From Chitinophagaceae bacterium (GTDB lineage: Bacteria; Bacteroidota; Bacteroidia; Chitinophagales; Chitinophagaceae): a DNA stretch of 64,000 nucleotides. The translations under genes were made by a program, and so were the position numbers. The DNA is taken from the NCBI GenBank assembly GCA_947375185.1, contig CANCEU010000003.1, positions 20,528 through 84,527 on the forward strand. Direction: 5' to 3'. Below, piece by piece: positions 13,280 to 21,890 of this stretch (positions are counted from its first letter, which is position 1; the number at the start of each line of letters is the position of its first letter). The notes under the pieces are model-generated. The model did not search any database. It was not told the DNA's origin and saw only the letters and a list, made by a program, of their open reading frames with translations.

Positions 13280-13414
13280 CGAAGCCTTAAGGGCAAAATA
13301 AAAACTAACAACTATTATTTTAGGACCTTTTATTGTCTTTTATGCCTTTCAAGTTCAAATTATAGCTACGATTGGGTCATATTTGTTTAATTATTTTATA
13401 CTTTTACTACCTAA

Positions 13415-13651
13415 TTCCTATCAAAGGATAATATTATGAAACAAGGACAATTAAATACTATACCAGTTAGTGCAAATTTTGCACCGGTCCTTGTATTGAA
13501 CAGCCCCATCAGGTTGCCGCTTGCGGTATCATTTTCACCCCGACGTGGATTCTGATAGGACGAGCAGTTGGCAATTGCCCCTATCAGTGGAAAAAACCCC
13601 GAAATTTTCTAGAAACGCCAGAAGTGTCATTTCCTTAAATTTTTAAGATCA
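13415..13651 (+). promoter_or_regulatory. Structured 5' leader of the arginine biosynthesis operon (candidate cis-regulatory RNA); 5' end inferred
   Basis: About 235 nt non-annotated, GC-richer than its surroundings; helices ACAAGGAC(13441-13448)/GTCCTTGT(13487-13494), GTGCAA(13470-13475)/TTGCAC(13479-13484), CTGATAGG(13552-13559)/CCTATCAG(13580-13587). Confidence 0.6.
13436..13555 (+). CDS. Candidate 39-aa leader peptide MKQGQLNTIPVSANFAPVLVLNSPIRLPLAVSFSPRRGF
   Basis: ATG...TGA ORF in the arginine operon leader, ending Ser-Pro-Arg-Arg-Gly-Phe; too short for the ORF track. Confidence 0.45.
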   Translation: MKQGQLNTIPVSANFAPVLVLNSPIRLPLAVSFSPRRGF

Positions 13652-14260
13652 TTGGAACAGCAAATTATAGTACGTGTAGCCCATAGTGGCGATGTTCATT
13701 ATGCAACAACCATCACTGATGAGATGGCTTCCTCTGCAAAAGCGCGTGGAACAGGGATTGCGAAGCGTAGTCCTGAATATGTTGCTAAAAAAATTGAAGA
13801 AGGTAAATCAGTTATTGCGCATACTCAAGATGGAACTTGGGTAGGCTTTTGTTATATCGAAGCTTGGCAGCATGGTCAATTTGTTGCCAATAGTGGATTA
13901 ATTGTTTCTCCAGCATTCAGAAAAAGTGGGATGGCTAAAAAGATAAAGCAAACTATTTTTCAATTGTCTCGAGAAAAGTATCCCAATGCAAAATTGTTTG
14001 GTTTAACAACTGGCTTGGCTGTTATGAAAATTAATAGTGAATTAGGTTATGAGCCAGTAACTTATAGTGAATTAACAGATGATGAAGAATTCTGGGCAGG
14101 TTGTAAGAGTTGTGTCAATTACGAAATATTAATGAGTAAGGATCGCAAAAATTGTATGTGTACTGCAATGTTACTTGAGCCAAAAGCGTCAGTAGAGACT
14201 CCGCAAGAAATTTCAAGTGGATTAAAAAGCAAATTATTAAACTGGTTTAGAAAAAAATAA
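13652..14260 (+). CDS. GNAT family N-acetyltransferase, candidate ArgA-like N-acyl-glutamate synthase; TTG start
   Basis: GNAT fold (LIVSPAFRKSGMAKKIKQTIFQLSREKYPNAKLFGLTTGLAVMKINSELGYEPV); first gene of the arg operon; no in-frame ATG upstream before the TAG at 13610. Confidence 0.75.
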   Translation: MEQQIIVRVAHSGDVHYATTITDEMASSAKARGTGIAKRSPEYVAKKIEEGKSVIAHTQDGTWVGFCYIEAWQHGQFVANSGLIVSPAFRKSGMAKKIKQTIFQLSREKYPNAKLFGLTTGLAVMKINSELGYEPVTYSELTDDEEFWAGCKSCVNYEILMSKDRKNCMCTAMLLEPKASVETPQEISSGLKSKLLNWFRKK

Positions 14261-14265
14261 AGAAT

Positions 14266-15465
14266 ATGGAAAAGGTCGTACTTGGATTTAGTGGAGGGTT
14301 AGATACTACATTTTGTGTAAAATATTTGACTCAAGATAAGGGCTTAGAAGTACATAGTGTAATTGTGAACACGGGTGGATTTACTGAAGAAGAGTTGAAA
14401 AAAGTAGAAACACATGCTTATGCATTGGGAGTAAAAACACATACCACTGTAAATGCAGTAAAAGGATATTACGAGAGCATCATTAAATACTTGGTGTATG
14501 GCAATGTTTTAAAAAACAATACCTATCCATTAAGTGTTAGTGCGGAACGTTTAAGTCAGGCATTACATATAGCAGAGCATGTGAAAAAAGTGGGTGCTAA
14601 ATTGGTAGCGCATGGAAGTACAGGTGCGGGCAATGATCAGGTGCGATTTGATATGATTTTTCAAATCATGATTCCTGGGATTGAAATATTAACTCCAATC
14701 AGAGATTTACAATTAAGCAGAGAAGCGGAAATTGAATACTTGAAAGGAAAGGGCGTGGAGATGAACTTTGAAAAAGCAGCTTATTCTATCAATAAAGGAT
14801 TGTGGGGAACGAGTGTGGGTGGTAAAGAAACATTGAACTCGAAAGGCATGTTACCCGAAAGTGCATGGCCTACGCAAATGACAAAGGAAGGAGCAACTGA
14901 AGAAATGGTGATTCGTTTTGAAAAAGGAGAAATCACGAAAGTAAATGGTCAATCCTTTACACATCCAACTGAAGCCATTCAATATATTCAATCTATTGCA
15001 GGCGCTTATGGGATTGGTAGAGACATACATGTTGGGGATACCATCATTGGTATCAAAGGTCGTGTAGGATTTGAAGCTGCTGCCCCCATGGTCATTTTAA
15101 AAGCACATCATGCATTAGAAAAACATGTATTGACTAAATGGCAATTATCATGGAAAGATCAATTAGCATCGTTCTATGGTAACTGGTTGCATGAGGGACA
15201 AATTTTAGATCCAGTGATGCGTGATATTGAAGCATACTTAACTAATTCTCAAGAACAAGTTAGTGGAAATGTATTTGTTCAATTGAATCCGTATCGCTTT
15301 CAAATTATTGGTATTGAATCAGAAAATGATTTGATGAGTGCTAAGTTTGGAAAGTATGGCGAAATGAATACTGGATTTACTGGTGCTGATGTAAGAGGAT
15401 TTACCAAAATTTTTGGCAATCAAACAGGAATTTTCCACAACGTGAAAGAATCTAATAAAAAATAA
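14266..15465 (+). CDS. argG: Argininosuccinate synthase
   Basis: VVLGFSGGLDTTFCVKYL; AHGSTGAGNDQVRFD. Confidence 0.93.
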   Translation: MEKVVLGFSGGLDTTFCVKYLTQDKGLEVHSVIVNTGGFTEEELKKVETHAYALGVKTHTTVNAVKGYYESIIKYLVYGNVLKNNTYPLSVSAERLSQALHIAEHVKKVGAKLVAHGSTGAGNDQVRFDMIFQIMIPGIEILTPIRDLQLSREAEIEYLKGKGVEMNFEKAAYSINKGLWGTSVGGKETLNSKGMLPESAWPTQMTKEGATEEMVIRFEKGEITKVNGQSFTHPTEAIQYIQSIAGAYGIGRDIHVGDTIIGIKGRVGFEAAAPMVILKAHHALEKHVLTKWQLSWKDQLASFYGNWLHEGQILDPVMRDIEAYLTNSQEQVSGNVFVQLNPYRFQIIGIESENDLMSAKFGKYGEMNTGFTGADVRGFTKIFGNQTGIFHNVKESNKK

Positions 15466-15478
15466 AATTAAGCATCTG

Positions 15479-16459
15479 ATGCAAAAGGTTAATATTGGAA
15501 TAGTTGGTGGAGCTGGTTATACAGGTGGTGAACTACTACGTGTATTGTTACGCCATCCTAATGCGCATATTGCTTTTGTGCACAGCACCAGTAGTGCTGG
15601 AGAATTGGTAAGTAAAGTACATGCTGATTTAGTGGGAGATACTAATTTACAATTTACTAATGTATTAGACCAAAACATTGATATTCTTTTTTTATGTGTA
15701 GGTCATGGAGATGCTAAAAAGTTTCTAGCTGCCAATCAAATAAAAGCGGGCATTAAAATCATAGATCTTTCACAAGATTTTAGGTTAGCATCAACTGCAG
15801 TTTTTGGAGAAATGCAATTTGTATATGGTTTACCTGAATTACAAAAATCGTCTATTCAAAAAGCAAATTATATTGCCAATCCAGGTTGTTTTGCTACCGC
15901 TATTCAATTAGGGTTGTTGCCATTGGCTGCAAAAGGGTTATTAAATGAAGTGTATACCACTGGCATTACAGGTTCAACTGGTGCAGGACAAGGGTTAGCT
16001 GCAACGAGTCACTTTAGTTGGAGAGCCAATAATATTCAAGCCTATAAAACTTTACAGCACCAACATCTAAATGAAATTGGCGAAAGCTTGGCTAACTTGC
16101 AAGGCAATCAAAATGCCGAAGTTCATTTTGTACCATGGAGAGGTGATTTTACAAGAGGTATTTTTGTAACATCGGTTGTTGGGTGTGATTTGAGTATCGA
16201 TGCAATATATGAATTATACAATGCTTTTTACGAAGCGCATCCATTTACACATGTTTCCAAAAACAATATTGATTTAAAACAGGTAGTAAATACCAATAAA
16301 TGTTTAATCCATATTGAAAAGCAAGGAAATAAAATTGCAATTCATTCTGTTATAGATAATTTATTGAAAGGTGCAGTTGGGCAAGCAGTACAAAATATGA
16401 ACTTACTTTTAGGACTAGAAGAAGGGACAGGTCTGCAATTAAAAGCAAATTATTTTTAA
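15479..16459 (+). CDS. argC: N-acetyl-gamma-glutamyl-phosphate reductase
   Basis: NIGIVGGAGYTGGELLRVLLRHPNA; ANPGCFATAIQLGLLPL. Confidence 0.95.
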   Translation: MQKVNIGIVGGAGYTGGELLRVLLRHPNAHIAFVHSTSSAGELVSKVHADLVGDTNLQFTNVLDQNIDILFLCVGHGDAKKFLAANQIKAGIKIIDLSQDFRLASTAVFGEMQFVYGLPELQKSSIQKANYIANPGCFATAIQLGLLPLAAKGLLNEVYTTGITGSTGAGQGLAATSHFSWRANNIQAYKTLQHQHLNEIGESLANLQGNQNAEVHFVPWRGDFTRGIFVTSVVGCDLSIDAIYELYNAFYEAHPFTHVSKNNIDLKQVVNTNKCLIHIEKQGNKIAIHSVIDNLLKGAVGQAVQNMNLLLGLEEGTGLQLKANYF

Positions 16460-16520
16460 TAATATTAATTAGTAAAAGAGAAATCTAGTAAACGATTTCA
16501 TTAATATAAAACTTTCAATC

Positions 16521-17672
16521 ATGTCATTATTCAATGTTTATCCTTTAAATCCTATTGCTATTACTAAAGCTGCGGGCAGCCGGGTATGGGACGATAAGGG
16601 GCAAGAATATTTGGACATGTATGGAGGCCATGCTGTTATAAGCATTGGACATACTCAACCTCACTGGGTAAAGCGCATCGAGGAACAACTGCATGCGATT
16701 GCGTTTTATTCTAATTCGGTAATTATGCCAATTCAAGAAAAATTGGCTATAGCATTAAATGAAATTAGTGGAAAAAAAGATTTTCAATTGTTTCTATGTA
16801 ATAGTGGCGCAGAAGCAAATGAGAATGCATTAAAGTTAGCTAGCTTTCATACCGGAAGAAAAAAAATTATTGCGTTTAAGAAATCATTTCACGGAAGAAC
16901 TTCATTAGCAGTAGCTGCTACAGACAATCCAAGTATTGTGGCTCCCGTAAACGATACGGATAATATTATCTTTTTGCCATTTAATGATGTTGCTGCATTA
17001 GAGAATTGTTTTGCCTTACAAGGTACTGAAATTGCAGCTGTAATAATTGAAGGTATACAAGGTGTTGCAGGCATTCATGAAGCAAGTGATTCATTTTTGC
17101 AGGCCATCAGAAAAGTTTGTGATGAGAATGGGGCAGTTTATATAGCAGACAGTGTACAATGTGGATATGGTCGATCTGGTCAATTTTTCGCACATGATCA
17201 TGCTGGAGTAAATGCAGATATTTACGCTATGGCAAAGGGTATGGGAAATGGTTTCCCAATTGGCGGAATATTAATTGCACCACATATTCAAGCTAAGTTT
17301 GGAATGTTGGGTACTACTTTTGGTGGCAATCCATTAGCATGTGCTGCGGCATTAGCAGTTATTGAAGTAATGCAAAAAGATAATTTAATCAAAGCTGCAC
17401 AAGAAAAAGGAATCTATTTAATAAATGCTTTGAAAAATATTAAAGGTGTTAAGGCAGTAAGAGGTAGAGGGTTAATGATTGGTTTTGAAATGGAGGCAGG
17501 ATTGGAAGATATTCGAAAAGTTTTATTGAATGATGTAAAAATATTTACAGGTGAGGCAAAGCCAAATGTTGTAAGATTGTTACCATCCTTGGCGATAAGC
17601 ATGGAGGATATCAATTTATTTTTAACCGGGTTGAATAAAGCAATTCAACTTTTGAAGCAAAACGCAGCGTAA
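16521..17672 (+). CDS. argD: Acyl-ornithine aminotransferase (PLP, class III)
   Basis: YLDMYGGHAVISIGHTQPHWV; SGAEANENALKLA; FHGRTSLAVAAT; AMAKGMGNGFPIGG. Confidence 0.92.
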   Translation: MSLFNVYPLNPIAITKAAGSRVWDDKGQEYLDMYGGHAVISIGHTQPHWVKRIEEQLHAIAFYSNSVIMPIQEKLAIALNEISGKKDFQLFLCNSGAEANENALKLASFHTGRKKIIAFKKSFHGRTSLAVAATDNPSIVAPVNDTDNIIFLPFNDVAALENCFALQGTEIAAVIIEGIQGVAGIHEASDSFLQAIRKVCDENGAVYIADSVQCGYGRSGQFFAHDHAGVNADIYAMAKGMGNGFPIGGILIAPHIQAKFGMLGTTFGGNPLACAAALAVIEVMQKDNLIKAAQEKGIYLINALKNIKGVKAVRGRGLMIGFEMEAGLEDIRKVLLNDVKIFTGEAKPNVVRLLPSLAISMEDINLFLTGLNKAIQLLKQNAA

Positions 17673-17676
17673 GCTC

Positions 17677-18645
17677 ATGAAACAATTTATTTCAGTAAAA
17701 GATGTAACGGATATCAATTTATTGGTAAAGCAAGCATTGCACTATAAAGCAAATCCATTTATAGATAAAGCATTAGGTGCCAATAAAAGAATTGGGTTGT
17801 TGTTTTTGAATCCAAGTTTAAGAACAAGATTGAGTACACAAGTTGCTGCTCAAAATTTAGGTATGGAGCCTATAGTATTTAATGTTGATAAGGAAGGTTG
17901 GGCATTAGAGTTTACGGAAGGTGCAATCATGAATGGAACAACTGTAGAACATATTAAAGACGCTGCTCCCATTTTGGGTAATTATTTTGATATACTTTGT
18001 ATAAGGACATTTCCTGGATTGCAAAATAGAGCGGATGATTACGGTGAAAAAATAATCAACCAGTTTATTAAGTATGCCGGAATTCCAATTGTGAGTTTAG
18101 AGTCAGCGACTTTGCACCCATTACAATCTTTAACCGATATAATAACCATTCAGGAATCAATTAACTTGAATGAAAACTTAAAAAACAAACAACCTAAAAT
18201 AGTGTTAACCTGGGCGCCACATATTAAGCCTATACCACAATGTGTAGCTAATAGCTTTAGTGAATGGGTGAATGCATGGGGAGAAGCAAATTTTGTCATT
18301 ACCCATCCTGTTGGATATGAATTAGACACGCAATACACACATGGTGCAACTATTTCGCATCATCAAGAGGAAGCTTTAAAAGATGCCGATTTTGTTTATG
18401 TAAAAAATTGGAGTAGTTATAGTGAATATGGAAAAGTGCTTTCAACTGATGAAAGTTGGATGTTGACGAATGCGAAGCTAGCTTTAACTAATAATGCGAA
18501 AGTGATGCATTGTTTGCCTGTGAGAAGAAATGTAGAATTAAGTGATGAAATTTTAGATGGCGCAAATAGTTTGGTCACAAAAGAAGCATCTAATAGAGTA
18601 TGGGCAGCACAGTCAGTACTAGCAAATATTTTAGGTTCATTATAA
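17677..18645 (+). CDS. argF': N-acetyl/N-succinyl-ornithine carbamoyltransferase
   Basis: NPSLRTRLSTQVAAQNLGM; HPLQSLTDIITIQE; MHCLPVRRNVELSDEIL. Confidence 0.92.
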   Translation: MKQFISVKDVTDINLLVKQALHYKANPFIDKALGANKRIGLLFLNPSLRTRLSTQVAAQNLGMEPIVFNVDKEGWALEFTEGAIMNGTTVEHIKDAAPILGNYFDILCIRTFPGLQNRADDYGEKIINQFIKYAGIPIVSLESATLHPLQSLTDIITIQESINLNENLKNKQPKIVLTWAPHIKPIPQCVANSFSEWVNAWGEANFVITHPVGYELDTQYTHGATISHHQEEALKDADFVYVKNWSSYSEYGKVLSTDESWMLTNAKLALTNNAKVMHCLPVRRNVELSDEILDGANSLVTKEASNRVWAAQSVLANILGSL

Positions 18646-18670
18646 TTTAATAATGAACACAAATCATAAA

Positions 18671-19453
18671 ATGGAAAAATTATACATCATTAAAATTGGA
18701 GGTAATATCGTTGACAATCCTGTATTGTTAACGGAGTGCCTAACTGCTTTTTCAAAATTGAAAGGGCAAGCTATTTTAGTGCATGGGGGCGGAAAATTAG
18801 CTACCCAAATGGCAACATCCATGGGGGTTGAGCAAACCATGGTGGATGGAAGAAGGATTACCGATGAGACAACGTTGAAAATTGTAACCATGGTATACGC
18901 AGGTGCAATCAATAAAAATATAGTTGCACAATTGCAATCATTGGGAGTGAACGCAATGGGTTTAACTGGGGCAGATGGAAATTTAATATATGCCCATAAA
19001 AGAATAGATAGTGCTATTGATTATGGCTTTGTTGGTGATGTAGATGGAATCAATACTGAGTTGGTAAAACAATTATTATCTAGTTCAATTAAATTAGTAG
19101 TAGCACCCATTACCCACGATGGCAATGGTCAATTATTAAATACCAATGCCGATACAATTGCTCAAAGCATTGCAACAGGTATGGCTAAGCAATATGAGGT
19201 GCATTTAATATATGGTTTTGAAAGAGAAGGGGTATTATCAGACGTTAATAATCCTGATTCAATTATCGCGTTTATTGATCGACCGGCTTACGGTACATTA
19301 AAAGAACAAAAAGTCATCTTTGAAGGAATGATTCCTAAAATTGACAACGCGTATTTGGCTTTAGAAGGTGGTGTGCAATCAGTCATCATTGGAAAAGCGG
19401 AAAAAATGAATCAATTAATTAACGGTACTGCAGGTACCACAATCAAAATATAA
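18671..19453 (+). CDS. argB: N-acyl-glutamate kinase
   Basis: MEKLYIIKIGGNIVDNP; LVHGGGKLATQMATSMGV; MGLTGADGNLI. Confidence 0.9.
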   Translation: MEKLYIIKIGGNIVDNPVLLTECLTAFSKLKGQAILVHGGGKLATQMATSMGVEQTMVDGRRITDETTLKIVTMVYAGAINKNIVAQLQSLGVNAMGLTGADGNLIYAHKRIDSAIDYGFVGDVDGINTELVKQLLSSSIKLVVAPITHDGNGQLLNTNADTIAQSIATGMAKQYEVHLIYGFEREGVLSDVNNPDSIIAFIDRPAYGTLKEQKVIFEGMIPKIDNAYLALEGGVQSVIIGKAEKMNQLINGTAGTTIKI

Positions 19454-20556
19454 TGTCACAGACCAATAACATACAACAAAACAGTGCACAGATTATAGCT
19501 TTACAAGAGGAAGCAAAACAATTATTAGAAAAATTAATTGCTTGCCCTTCCTTTAGCAAAGAGGAGGATAAAACTGCTGATTTAATTCAAGCTTATTTAC
19601 TTCATAAAAAAGTAAAAACAGAAAGAATTAAAAATAATATTTGGGCAGTAAATACACATTACGATGAAGTAAAGCCAACCTTATTGTTAAATTCTCATCA
19701 CGATACCGTTAAAGCAAATAAAGGATTTACAATTGATCCTTTTGTCCCAATTGAAAAAGAGGATAAATTATTTGGGCTGGGAAGTAATGATGCAGGAGGT
19801 TGTTTGGTGAGTTTAATAGCTACTTTTTTGTATTACTATGATAGAGCCGATTTGCCATTTAATATTATTTTAGTGGCTTCTGCCGAAGAAGAAATATCAG
19901 GGGTAGACGGAATTGAATTGGTATTACCATCATTGCCTAAAATTGATTTTGGAATTGTAGGAGAGCCAACTTTGTTGGAAATGGCGATAGCTGAAAGAGG
20001 ATTATTGGTGTTAGATGTGGTGGCTTCTGGAAAGTCAGGACATGCTGCAAGAGAAGAAGGGGAAAGTGCCCTATATAAAATATTGCCAGATATCGAATGG
20101 TTTAAATCTTATGAATTTGAAAAAATTTCTGACTTATTGGGAAAGGTAAAAATGACTGTAACCGTTATTGAGACAGAGAATAAACAACATAATGTGGTAC
20201 CTTCTACTTGTAAAATAGTTGTAGATGTTCGTGTAAATGAATTATATACGTTTGAAGAAATATTGGAGACTATTGGGAAGCATGTAAAGTCGTCAGTAAT
20301 ACCAAGATCATTAAGAATGCGTTCTACAGGAATTGCACTTGATCATAAATTAATTCAAGCAGGGTTGGCGCTAGGTAAAGGATATTATGGTTCAGTGACT
20401 ACATCTGACAAAGCATTAATGCCATTTCCAACTTTAAAAATGGGGCCAGGTGATTCTGCCAGAAGTCATACTGCAGACGAGTTTATCTTTGTAAGAGAAA
20501 TAGAGGAGGGAATTCAGACTTATATACAACTAATTGATAAAATGATTTCATTATGA
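19453..20556 (+). CDS. argE: M20 family acyl-ornithine deacylase
   Basis: NSHHDTVKANKGFTIDPF; GSNDAGGCLVSL; SAEEEISGVDGIE; operon position. Confidence 0.88.
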   Translation: MSQTNNIQQNSAQIIALQEEAKQLLEKLIACPSFSKEEDKTADLIQAYLLHKKVKTERIKNNIWAVNTHYDEVKPTLLLNSHHDTVKANKGFTIDPFVPIEKEDKLFGLGSNDAGGCLVSLIATFLYYYDRADLPFNIILVASAEEEISGVDGIELVLPSLPKIDFGIVGEPTLLEMAIAERGLLVLDVVASGKSGHAAREEGESALYKILPDIEWFKSYEFEKISDLLGKVKMTVTVIETENKQHNVVPSTCKIVVDVRVNELYTFEEILETIGKHVKSSVIPRSLRMRSTGIALDHKLIQAGLALGKGYYGSVTTSDKALMPFPTLKMGPGDSARSHTADEFIFVREIEEGIQTYIQLIDKMISL

Positions 20557-21890
20557 GTAAGCTTTGGCAAAAAAATAATAAGGTAGCTAGTTCGGTTGAA
20601 CAGTTTACTATTGGTAAGGACCAGGAAATGGATTTATACTTGGCTGCTTATGATGTATTAGGATCCATTGCGCATACCACGATGTTATCTGAGGTTGGTC
20701 TTTTAACAAATTCAGAGCAAGTTCAATTAAAAAAAGCATTGGTTGAAATATATGCAATGGTGCAAGCAGGTAATTTTCAATTAGCAGAAGGCGTTGAAGA
20801 TATTCATTCACAGGTGGAAATGCTATTAACTGAAAAGCTGGGTGATATTGGTAAAAAAATTCATAGTGCACGTAGTAGAAATGATCAGGTTTTAGTAGAT
20901 CTTAAATTGTTTTTACGCGCTGAATTAATGTCATTAACCACTTCAGTTCAATCCTTATTTAGTTTGTTGCAAAATAAAAGTGAGCAACATAAAAATGATT
21001 TATTACCCGGATATACGCACTTGCAGTTGGCCATGCCATCTTCCTTTGGTTTGTGGTTAGGGGCATACGCTGAAAGTTTAGTGGACGACATGACCATATT
21101 GCAAGCAGCATTTACAGTTGTGAATAAAAATCCATTAGGATCTGCTGCAGGATATGGATCTTCATTTCCAATTAACCGAACAAGGACAACTGAATTATTG
21201 GGTTTTGAGACATTGAATTATAATGTTGTTTATGCGCAAATGGGTCGTGGTAAAGCGGAAAGAATTACAGCTATGGCATTGGCAAATTTTGCAGATACAT
21301 TGTCAAGACTAAGTATGGATGCTTGTTTATTTATGAATCAGAATTTTGGGTTCATTAAATTCCCTGAAGAATTAACAACAGGATCAAGTATTATGCCGCA
21401 TAAAAAAAACCCAGATGTATTTGAATTGATAAGATCTTATTGCAATCGTATAAAAGCACTGCCTAATGAAATTATGATGATGACTACAAACCTGCCTTCG
21501 GGTTATCATCGTGATTTACAATTATTAAAAGAACATTTATTTCCAGCATTTCAACAATTGAAAAATTGTATGGAAATGGCTTCTTTGATGATTCAGCATA
21601 TGGAAGTGAAACAAGATTTATTGGAGGATCCTAAATATCAATATTTATTTAGTGTTGAAGAAGTCAATAAATTAGTGAATGCGGGTGTTCCTTTTAGAGA
21701 TGCGTATAAAAAAATTGGATTGGCAATTGAAGACGGAAATTATACATATTCAACAAAGGTTGCCCATACCCATGAGGGCAGTATTGGAAACCTTTGTACG
21801 GCAGAAATTGCTATTGCTATGAAAAAAGTGTTAAATAGTATGGAATTTGAGAAAGTTGACCAAAAAATTAACCAATTATTGAAGCCCTAA
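20553..21890 (+). CDS. argH: Argininosuccinate lyase
   Basis: DIHSQVEMLLTEKLGDIGKKIHSARSRNDQV; GSSIMPHKKNPDVFELIR. Confidence 0.95.
   Translation: MSKLWQKNNKVASSVEQFTIGKDQEMDLYLAAYDVLGSIAHTTMLSEVGLLTNSEQVQLKKALVEIYAMVQAGNFQLAEGVEDIHSQVEMLLTEKLGDIGKKIHSARSRNDQVLVDLKLFLRAELMSLTTSVQSLFSLLQNKSEQHKNDLLPGYTHLQLAMPSSFGLWLGAYAESLVDDMTILQAAFTVVNKNPLGSAAGYGSSFPINRTRTTELLGFETLNYNVVYAQMGRGKAERITAMALANFADTLSRLSMDACLFMNQNFGFIKFPEELTTGSSIMPHKKNPDVFELIRSYCNRIKALPNEIMMMTTNLPSGYHRDLQLLKEHLFPAFQQLKNCMEMASLMIQHMEVKQDLLEDPKYQYLFSVEEVNKLVNAGVPFRDAYKKIGLAIEDGNYTYSTKVAHTHEGSIGNLCTAEIAIAMKKVLNSMEFEKVDQKINQLLKP

Follow-up and report, generated by a model that had tools for sequence, protein, structure and literature searches.

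A conserved arginine-ended leader peptide and stop-codon hairpin as a likely attenuator of the arginine biosynthesis operon in Chitinophagaceae

How is an arginine biosynthesis operon controlled in bacteria that do not possess the arginine repressor? The synthesis of this amino acid is a textbook case of control by the ArgR repressor, and its operons are not generally known to be attenuated. A search for ArgR (PF01316) in 150 Chitinophagaceae genomes, including the one studied here, gave no match, while the positive controls, Bacteroides among them, were recovered. The window analysed is a stretch of 64,000 nucleotides from a Chitinophagaceae bacterium (assembly GCA_947375185.1, contig CANCEU010000003.1, positions 20,528 to 84,527), and all positions below are counted from its first letter. 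It contains an operon in which an acetyltransferase gene, whose product is probably the N-acetylglutamate synthase, heads argG-C-D-F'-B-E-H:

13652 to 14260, forward strand: GNAT acetyltransferase, first gene of the operon, with a TTG start (gene calls and the contexts of relatives)
14266 to 21890, forward strand: argG, argC, argD, N-acetylornithine carbamoyltransferase, argB, argE-like gene and argH (profile scans; argH by its sequence)

The region upstream of this operon suggests an answer. We consider it likely, judging from the sequence of the leader and its relatives, that the operon is governed by an arginine-responsive leader-peptide attenuator, whose dependence on arginine we infer from its codons and from the gene context. 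The first element of this attenuator would be a short reading frame:

13436 to 13555, forward strand: leader ORF of 39 codons, MKQGQLNTIPVSANFAPVLVLNSPIRLPLAVSFSPRRGF followed by the stop codon; an in-phase ORF with coding-type substitutions is found in nearly all relatives
13541 to 13546, forward strand: tandem arginine codons CGA CGT, codons -4 and -3 counted from the stop; codon -4 encodes arginine in 189 of 209 relatives

The translation MKQGQLNTIPVSANFAPVLVLNSPIRLPLAVSFSPRRGF was read directly from the sequence between the ATG at 13436 and the TGA at 13553-13555. Relatives of this leader were collected in several ways. A blastn search with positions 13400-13660 as query over 101 relatives matched 50 same-genus genomes, and no convincing match came from other genera. 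A covariance model built on a 50-nt core, used with E-values up to 0.1 and thus including a few weak matches, found the element in 85 of 299 genomes and 37 of 104 genera of the family, and a fixed-pattern scan of named genomes gave at least 117 loci. The pooled set comprises 244 loci in 209 distinct contexts, the share of the pattern scan being taken from among the matches listed. The genera among these listed matches are Sediminibacterium, Terrimonas, Flavihumibacter, Flavisolibacter, Ferruginibacter, Pinibacter, Paracnuella and Flaviaesturariibacter, all Chitinophagaceae; the remaining ones are metagenome bins whose labels read Chitinophagaceae, Chitinophagales or Bacteroidota or give an older group name. 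The same acetyltransferase gene follows in all 209 contexts. Its start codon at 13652 is TTG, and most relatives likewise retain either TTG or GTG, which suggests a deliberately weak start.

The initial annotation had proposed the ORF at 13436-13555 from this one sequence, and the comparison bears it out. Upstream of the matching TGA, the leader frame stays open over at least 28 codons in 205 of the 209 contexts (98%), against 23% and 30% for the two shifted frames, and only in this frame do the codons evolve in a coding-like manner. Frame-disrupting indels in homologous leaders, named beforehand as a check, were not found: the in-phase ORF upstream of the TGA is kept in 50 of 50 same-genus genomes, with lengths of 30-41 codons and all length changes in phase. 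In these 50 genomes the end of the ORF and the hairpin described below are nearly invariant, and the leader terminates in Arg-Arg-Gly-(Phe or Cys), with a single exception ending in Arg-Arg-Glu-Phe. Apart from the Phe/Cys exchange and the one Gly/Glu exchange, the variable bases of the coding part lie almost all at synonymous sites. Because of the near-invariance within the genus and the in-phase length changes, chance is excluded as the origin of ORF and hairpin, and on this comparative evidence the 39-codon leader is a real, translated ORF.

Selection on the peptide itself could be followed by pN/pS, computed in gapless subgroups with the last six codons left out. In the clade of the window's genus the leader frame has values of 0.22-0.56, and the other two frames have 0.83-1.9. 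In the HTKQ subgroup (HTKQFAFHAPITSGVYAVGFDVFTFSRPRRRP) the corresponding ranges are 0.15-0.32 and 1.3-3.6, with 0.15 in the main register and 0.21 overall. Amino-acid selection in this subgroup spans approximately 28 residues upstream of the arginine codons. Upstream of the putative arrest site discussed below, selection on the peptide is therefore strong in the HTKQ subgroup and moderate in the window's genus.

The most characteristic part of the leader is its end. The initial annotation had seen the codons CGA (13541-13543) and CGT (13544-13546) next to the stop; both are present, with GGA and TTC between them and the TGA, hence they are near the stop codon and not adjoining it. At least two arginine codons among the last ten occur in 208 of 209 leaders, in contrast to 9 and 28 of 209 in the shifted frames, and codon -4 encodes arginine in the 189 contexts given above, so its position is fixed relative to the stop. 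The terminus PRPRR is frequent (57 of 209). Codon usage is varied, with CGA 271, CGT 167, CGC 106, AGA 34, AGG 24 and CGG 7 times, and synonymous exchange can be observed directly, e.g. AGA CGA in the loci L127 and L130. It is arginine that is enriched and not positive charge in general, since the last eight codons of the 209 contexts contain 574 arginine but 6 lysine codons, whereas codons -30 to -9 contain 128 and 104, respectively. The leader carries control codons for the end product of its operon, as classical attenuators do.

The stop codon of the leader is part of a hairpin, P1:

13552 to 13559, forward strand: P1 5' arm CTGATAGG, which includes the leader stop TGA (covarying pairs; T-A and C-G replace each other in the outer stem)
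13560 to 13563, forward strand: near-invariant P1 internal loop ACGA (alignment of relatives)
13564 to 13567, forward strand: 5' arm of the P1 inner stem, GCAG, pairing with 13575-13578 (compensatory G-C/A-T and C-G/A-T exchanges)
13568 to 13574, forward strand: P1 terminal loop TTGGCAA, of which TTGGC (13568-13572) is the proposed partner of 13617-13621 (loop-downstream covariation)
13575 to 13578, forward strand: 3' arm of the P1 inner stem, TTGC (compensatory exchanges)
13580 to 13587, forward strand: P1 3' arm CCTATCAG (conservation and covariation in relatives)

The outer helix has 8 bp (13552-13559 with 13580-13587) and its 5' arm begins at the last base before the stop. The initial annotation had located the stop codon within a helix strand TGATAGG, and rightly so: TGATAGG (13553-13559), with the TGA as its first three bases, pairs with CCTATCA (13580-13586), and compensatory changes in relatives show the helix to be real. 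The covariation score of P1 is 0.232 against 0.107 in shuffled alignments, and 0.223 against 0.110 in a second alignment, and none of 500 shuffles reaches either value; kinship among the sequences inflates such covariation counts. Large parts of the outer stem do not vary and are as such uninformative on pairing, and part of the P1 invariance is built into the loci from the fixed pattern, but not into those from model R1. A short C-rich stretch 3' of P1 (CCCCGAAA, 13590-13605) is conserved throughout the Chitinophagaceae. A -1 frameshift that would extend the leader past its stop was considered and rejected, since in many relatives this frame runs into a TGA directly behind P1 (TGR at position +35) and the extension is not conserved.

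Outside the Chitinophagaceae, only weak matches to P1 were found among 395 genomes of the class (model R1) and 299 genomes of the order (model R2) under strict filters. Four weak matches (L083, L084, L134 and L135) lacked the P1 arms and were discarded. By these searches, the unit of leader and P1 is confined to the Chitinophagaceae. Rfam 15 contains no family that matches it at the gathering score; there was one sub-threshold chance match, and only a tRNA was found elsewhere in locus L089.

The near-invariant internal loop ACGA, together with the contact of the terminal loop described below, is reminiscent of small riboswitches, and P1 might be seen as a ligand-binding RNA with a short ORF overlapping it by coincidence. 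We regard this as very improbable, because clear selection for coding and for arginine acts on the overlapping ORF, other families keep arginine leaders with a different RNA (see below) and there is no Rfam match. The opposite simplification, that the ORF encodes a small functional protein without any regulatory role, could draw on the amino-acid selection in the HTKQ subgroup. It is still harder to believe, since the stop codon forms part of P1, the leader end is specific for arginine and its place in front of the arg operon is constant.

The initial annotation had further suggested that the position of the ribosome at the arginine codons may decide with which of two partners TGATAGG pairs. 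The choice between two partners was not borne out, as no more than 3 of the 39 close relatives, and 6 of all 209 contexts, possess the exact upstream complement. The more general idea that a ribosome near the arginine codons or the stop can affect the helix gains support, the stop codon being part of a real helix. No mutually exclusive terminator/antiterminator pair was found among the leaders of the relatives compared. An antiterminator made of a P2 stem arm and the P1 3' arm was sought by eye in the list of loci; it showed no consistent pattern and was dropped. The second interaction that is conserved joins the P1 loop to an element located 30-65 nt further downstream:

13617 to 13621, forward strand: GCCAG, complement of the P1 loop and thus a candidate pseudoknot or kissing partner (co-occurrence of GCCA and TGGC)

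In the window, the loop sequence TTGGC (13568-13572) can pair with this GCCAG. GCCA occurs downstream in 52 of 90 loci with a TGGC loop but in only 3 of 119 others, and TGGT in 81 of 99 loci with an NACC loop compared with 7 of 110 others. Within the NACC class, the base beside ACC matches the base beside GGT in 56 of 81 loci, whereas shuffling gives 30.2 +/- 3.8 and none of 20,000 shuffles reaches the observed number. This pairing can coexist with P1.

That P1 is followed by no U-tract had already been noticed in the initial annotation. Indeed GTGGAAAAAACCCC comes next, and P1 is no intrinsic terminator. Across the family, terminator-like sites between P1 and the gene are not enriched (24% against 18% in shuffled sequences). 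For this reason translational or Rho-type control is also in our view the likelier reading, in agreement with what had been proposed from the single sequence. In four relatives (L046, L049, L056 and L206) there is a hairpin with a U-run between P1 and the gene, possibly a shift to intrinsic termination there. On the upstream side, the leader is probably preceded by a promoter:

13399 to 13406, forward strand: putative -7 promoter element TACTTTTA of the Bacteroidota type TANNTTTG (from the sequence; predicted for the window)

Of 195 relatives, 100 carry TANNTTTG in the 60 nt that precede the leader start, compared with 7.0 +/- 2.4 in shuffled sequences, and transcription in the window probably starts near 13411-13415. 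Close relatives show a small inverted repeat, TCCT...AGGA, before the leader start (13415-13427), in which AGGA occupies a Shine-Dalgarno-like position.

From these elements a mechanism can be proposed in which the position of the ribosome on the leader would report the arginine supply, as the codons and the operon suggest. Between the first base of its A-site codon and its leading edge, a ribosome covers approximately 11-12 nt. When waiting at the arginine codons (-3 to -6), it would reach roughly to the foot of P1, and the hairpin would stay mostly free: the edge would lie at the foot with codon -4 in the A-site, and approximately three bases of P1 would be covered with codon -3. At the stop codon it would cover the whole 5' arm, and P1 could fold after release. 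It is this footprint reach at codon -4, codon -3 and the stop that might separate a P1-free from a P1-blocked state. By analogy to the trp geometry, we lean slightly towards P1 formed beside the waiting ribosome as the ON state. Folding of P1 and the loop-downstream pairing would then set the output of the operon via the weak TTG/GTG initiation or via Rho-type termination, both being proposed because intrinsic terminators are not conserved. The leader unit would in this way do the job of ArgR, which is absent from the Chitinophagaceae. Against an attenuator stand the failure to find a mutually exclusive terminator/antiterminator pair, by which textbook attenuation is recognised, and the distance of the arginine codons from P1; a starved ribosome hardly touches the hairpin, and the simplest occlusion model fits poorly.

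Two versions of the attenuator can be distinguished. They are alternatives within this interpretation, and the likelihoods attached to them are not to be added to that of the attenuator itself. In classical attenuation by codons alone, a shortage of charged Arg-tRNA would stall the ribosome at CGA or other CGN codons, and alternative RNA structures would decide about transcription termination, as they do in the trp and his leaders. This version accounts for what all subgroups show, arginine codons close to the stop that are exchanged for synonymous ones, AGA among them, and the few relatives with a hairpin and U-run before the gene are in line with it. On the other hand, terminator-like sites show no general enrichment, the P1 arm has no conserved alternative partner and selection on the upstream peptide stays unexplained. 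We therefore see it as a good possibility that falls short of being probable. A pure codon counter would not predict selection on approximately 28 upstream residues, so that codon counting is perhaps not the whole sensor.

This selection, with a pN/pS of 0.15-0.21 in the HTKQ subgroup against more than 3 in other frames, would be expected of an arginine-dependent arrest peptide. In this second version, the nascent chain would hold the ribosome at or near the stop when arginine is plentiful, so that the P1 5' arm is masked and the operon is kept low. It would explain both the arginine codons and the upstream selection and would make the stop-bound ribosome, which would cover the entire 5' arm, a long-lived state. 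The position of arginine relative to the stop, fixed at codon -4, and the failure of lysine to substitute for it also fit. Pro-Arg-Pro or type II proline-rich peptides arrest terminating ribosomes, and the PRPRR ends resemble them, a resemblance only (PMC11347161, PMC10449632). In contrast, conservation is weaker in the window's genus (0.22-0.56), the peptides of different subgroups have little in common but the end, and the selection could also reflect a released small protein. We consider this version possible but rather doubtful. A more far-reaching form is tentative and in our opinion rather unlikely, namely an arrest peptide by which a bacterium senses arginine and represses its biosynthesis: arginine would halt the ribosome at PRPRR-G-F/C-stop and thereby unfold a stop-codon hairpin with a loop-downstream contact, and the arginine-ended leaders of other Bacteroidia without ArgR would be independent versions. 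If true, the fungal arginine attenuator peptide would have its counterpart in bacteria.

Whichever version of the attenuator applies, unrelated arginine-rich leaders often exist at this place in other families of the class without ArgR. In a class-wide sample, ArgR was present in 7 of 119 genomes, in three of them beside the acetyltransferase gene. Among 40 ArgR-lacking loci from other families, 21 are preceded by an ORF whose last ten codons include three or more for arginine, compared with 3.9% in shuffled sequences, but none of the three loci with ArgR beside the acetyltransferase gene has one. Examples are VPFFPRR, SSRRRPMFRSRI, FSPSRRRPYMPRA and ARRPFSRRPARV, all directly followed by the stop codon. 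Their hairpins differ from P1, and several begin at or near the stop. Within the Chitinophagaceae, locus L256 lacks P1 proper, and TGATGCAGCT...AGCTGCATCA begins at its leader stop. Since families without ArgR have different arginine-ended leaders at the same place, such leaders seem to be a solution used throughout the class, and the P1 unit of the Chitinophagaceae one form of it. The loci L254-L294 show unrelated arginine-tailed small ORFs before the acetyltransferase gene, with FSIPAGIVF...VPFFPRR and stop common to several loci, and each of these ORF types may be an attenuator class of its own.

Leader regulation in Bacteroidota is little studied, and no arginine leader in this phylum was found in the literature searched. 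For Flavobacterium psychrophilum, unspecified leader-peptide attenuators before amino-acid operons have been predicted (PMC9723704). They resemble the present case in phylum and in the placing of leader peptides before amino-acid operons, but the passage on them names no arginine leader, P1/P2 RNA or replacement of ArgR (PMC9723704).

With attenuators of the trpL/hisL type, the Chitinophagaceae leader shares a short translated ORF before a biosynthetic operon, codons for the product amino acid near its end and a hairpin beside the stop codon. It differs in that no conserved terminator/antiterminator pair was found, and in possessing a near-invariant hairpin, a loop-downstream pairing and a partly conserved peptide. 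The fungal arginine attenuator peptide holds the ribosome together with arginine, and TnaC and SpeFL do so with their ligands. Common to these systems and ours are a conserved peptide, key residues near the stop, amino-acid metabolism downstream and, putatively here, an RNA element masked by a stop-bound ribosome. However, the two bacterial systems turn on genes of catabolism or polyamine metabolism, whereas here a biosynthetic operon follows and the arrest is hypothetical. The mix of codon-level and peptide-level conservation makes it possible to ask whether it is the supply of tRNA or the nascent chain that an attenuator senses. ArgR and its ARG boxes serve the same regulatory task; instead of this repressor, the Chitinophagaceae carry a conserved translated leader and a hairpin that contains its stop codon. 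If confirmed, leader translation would be the main arginine sensor across a large part of the Bacteroidota.
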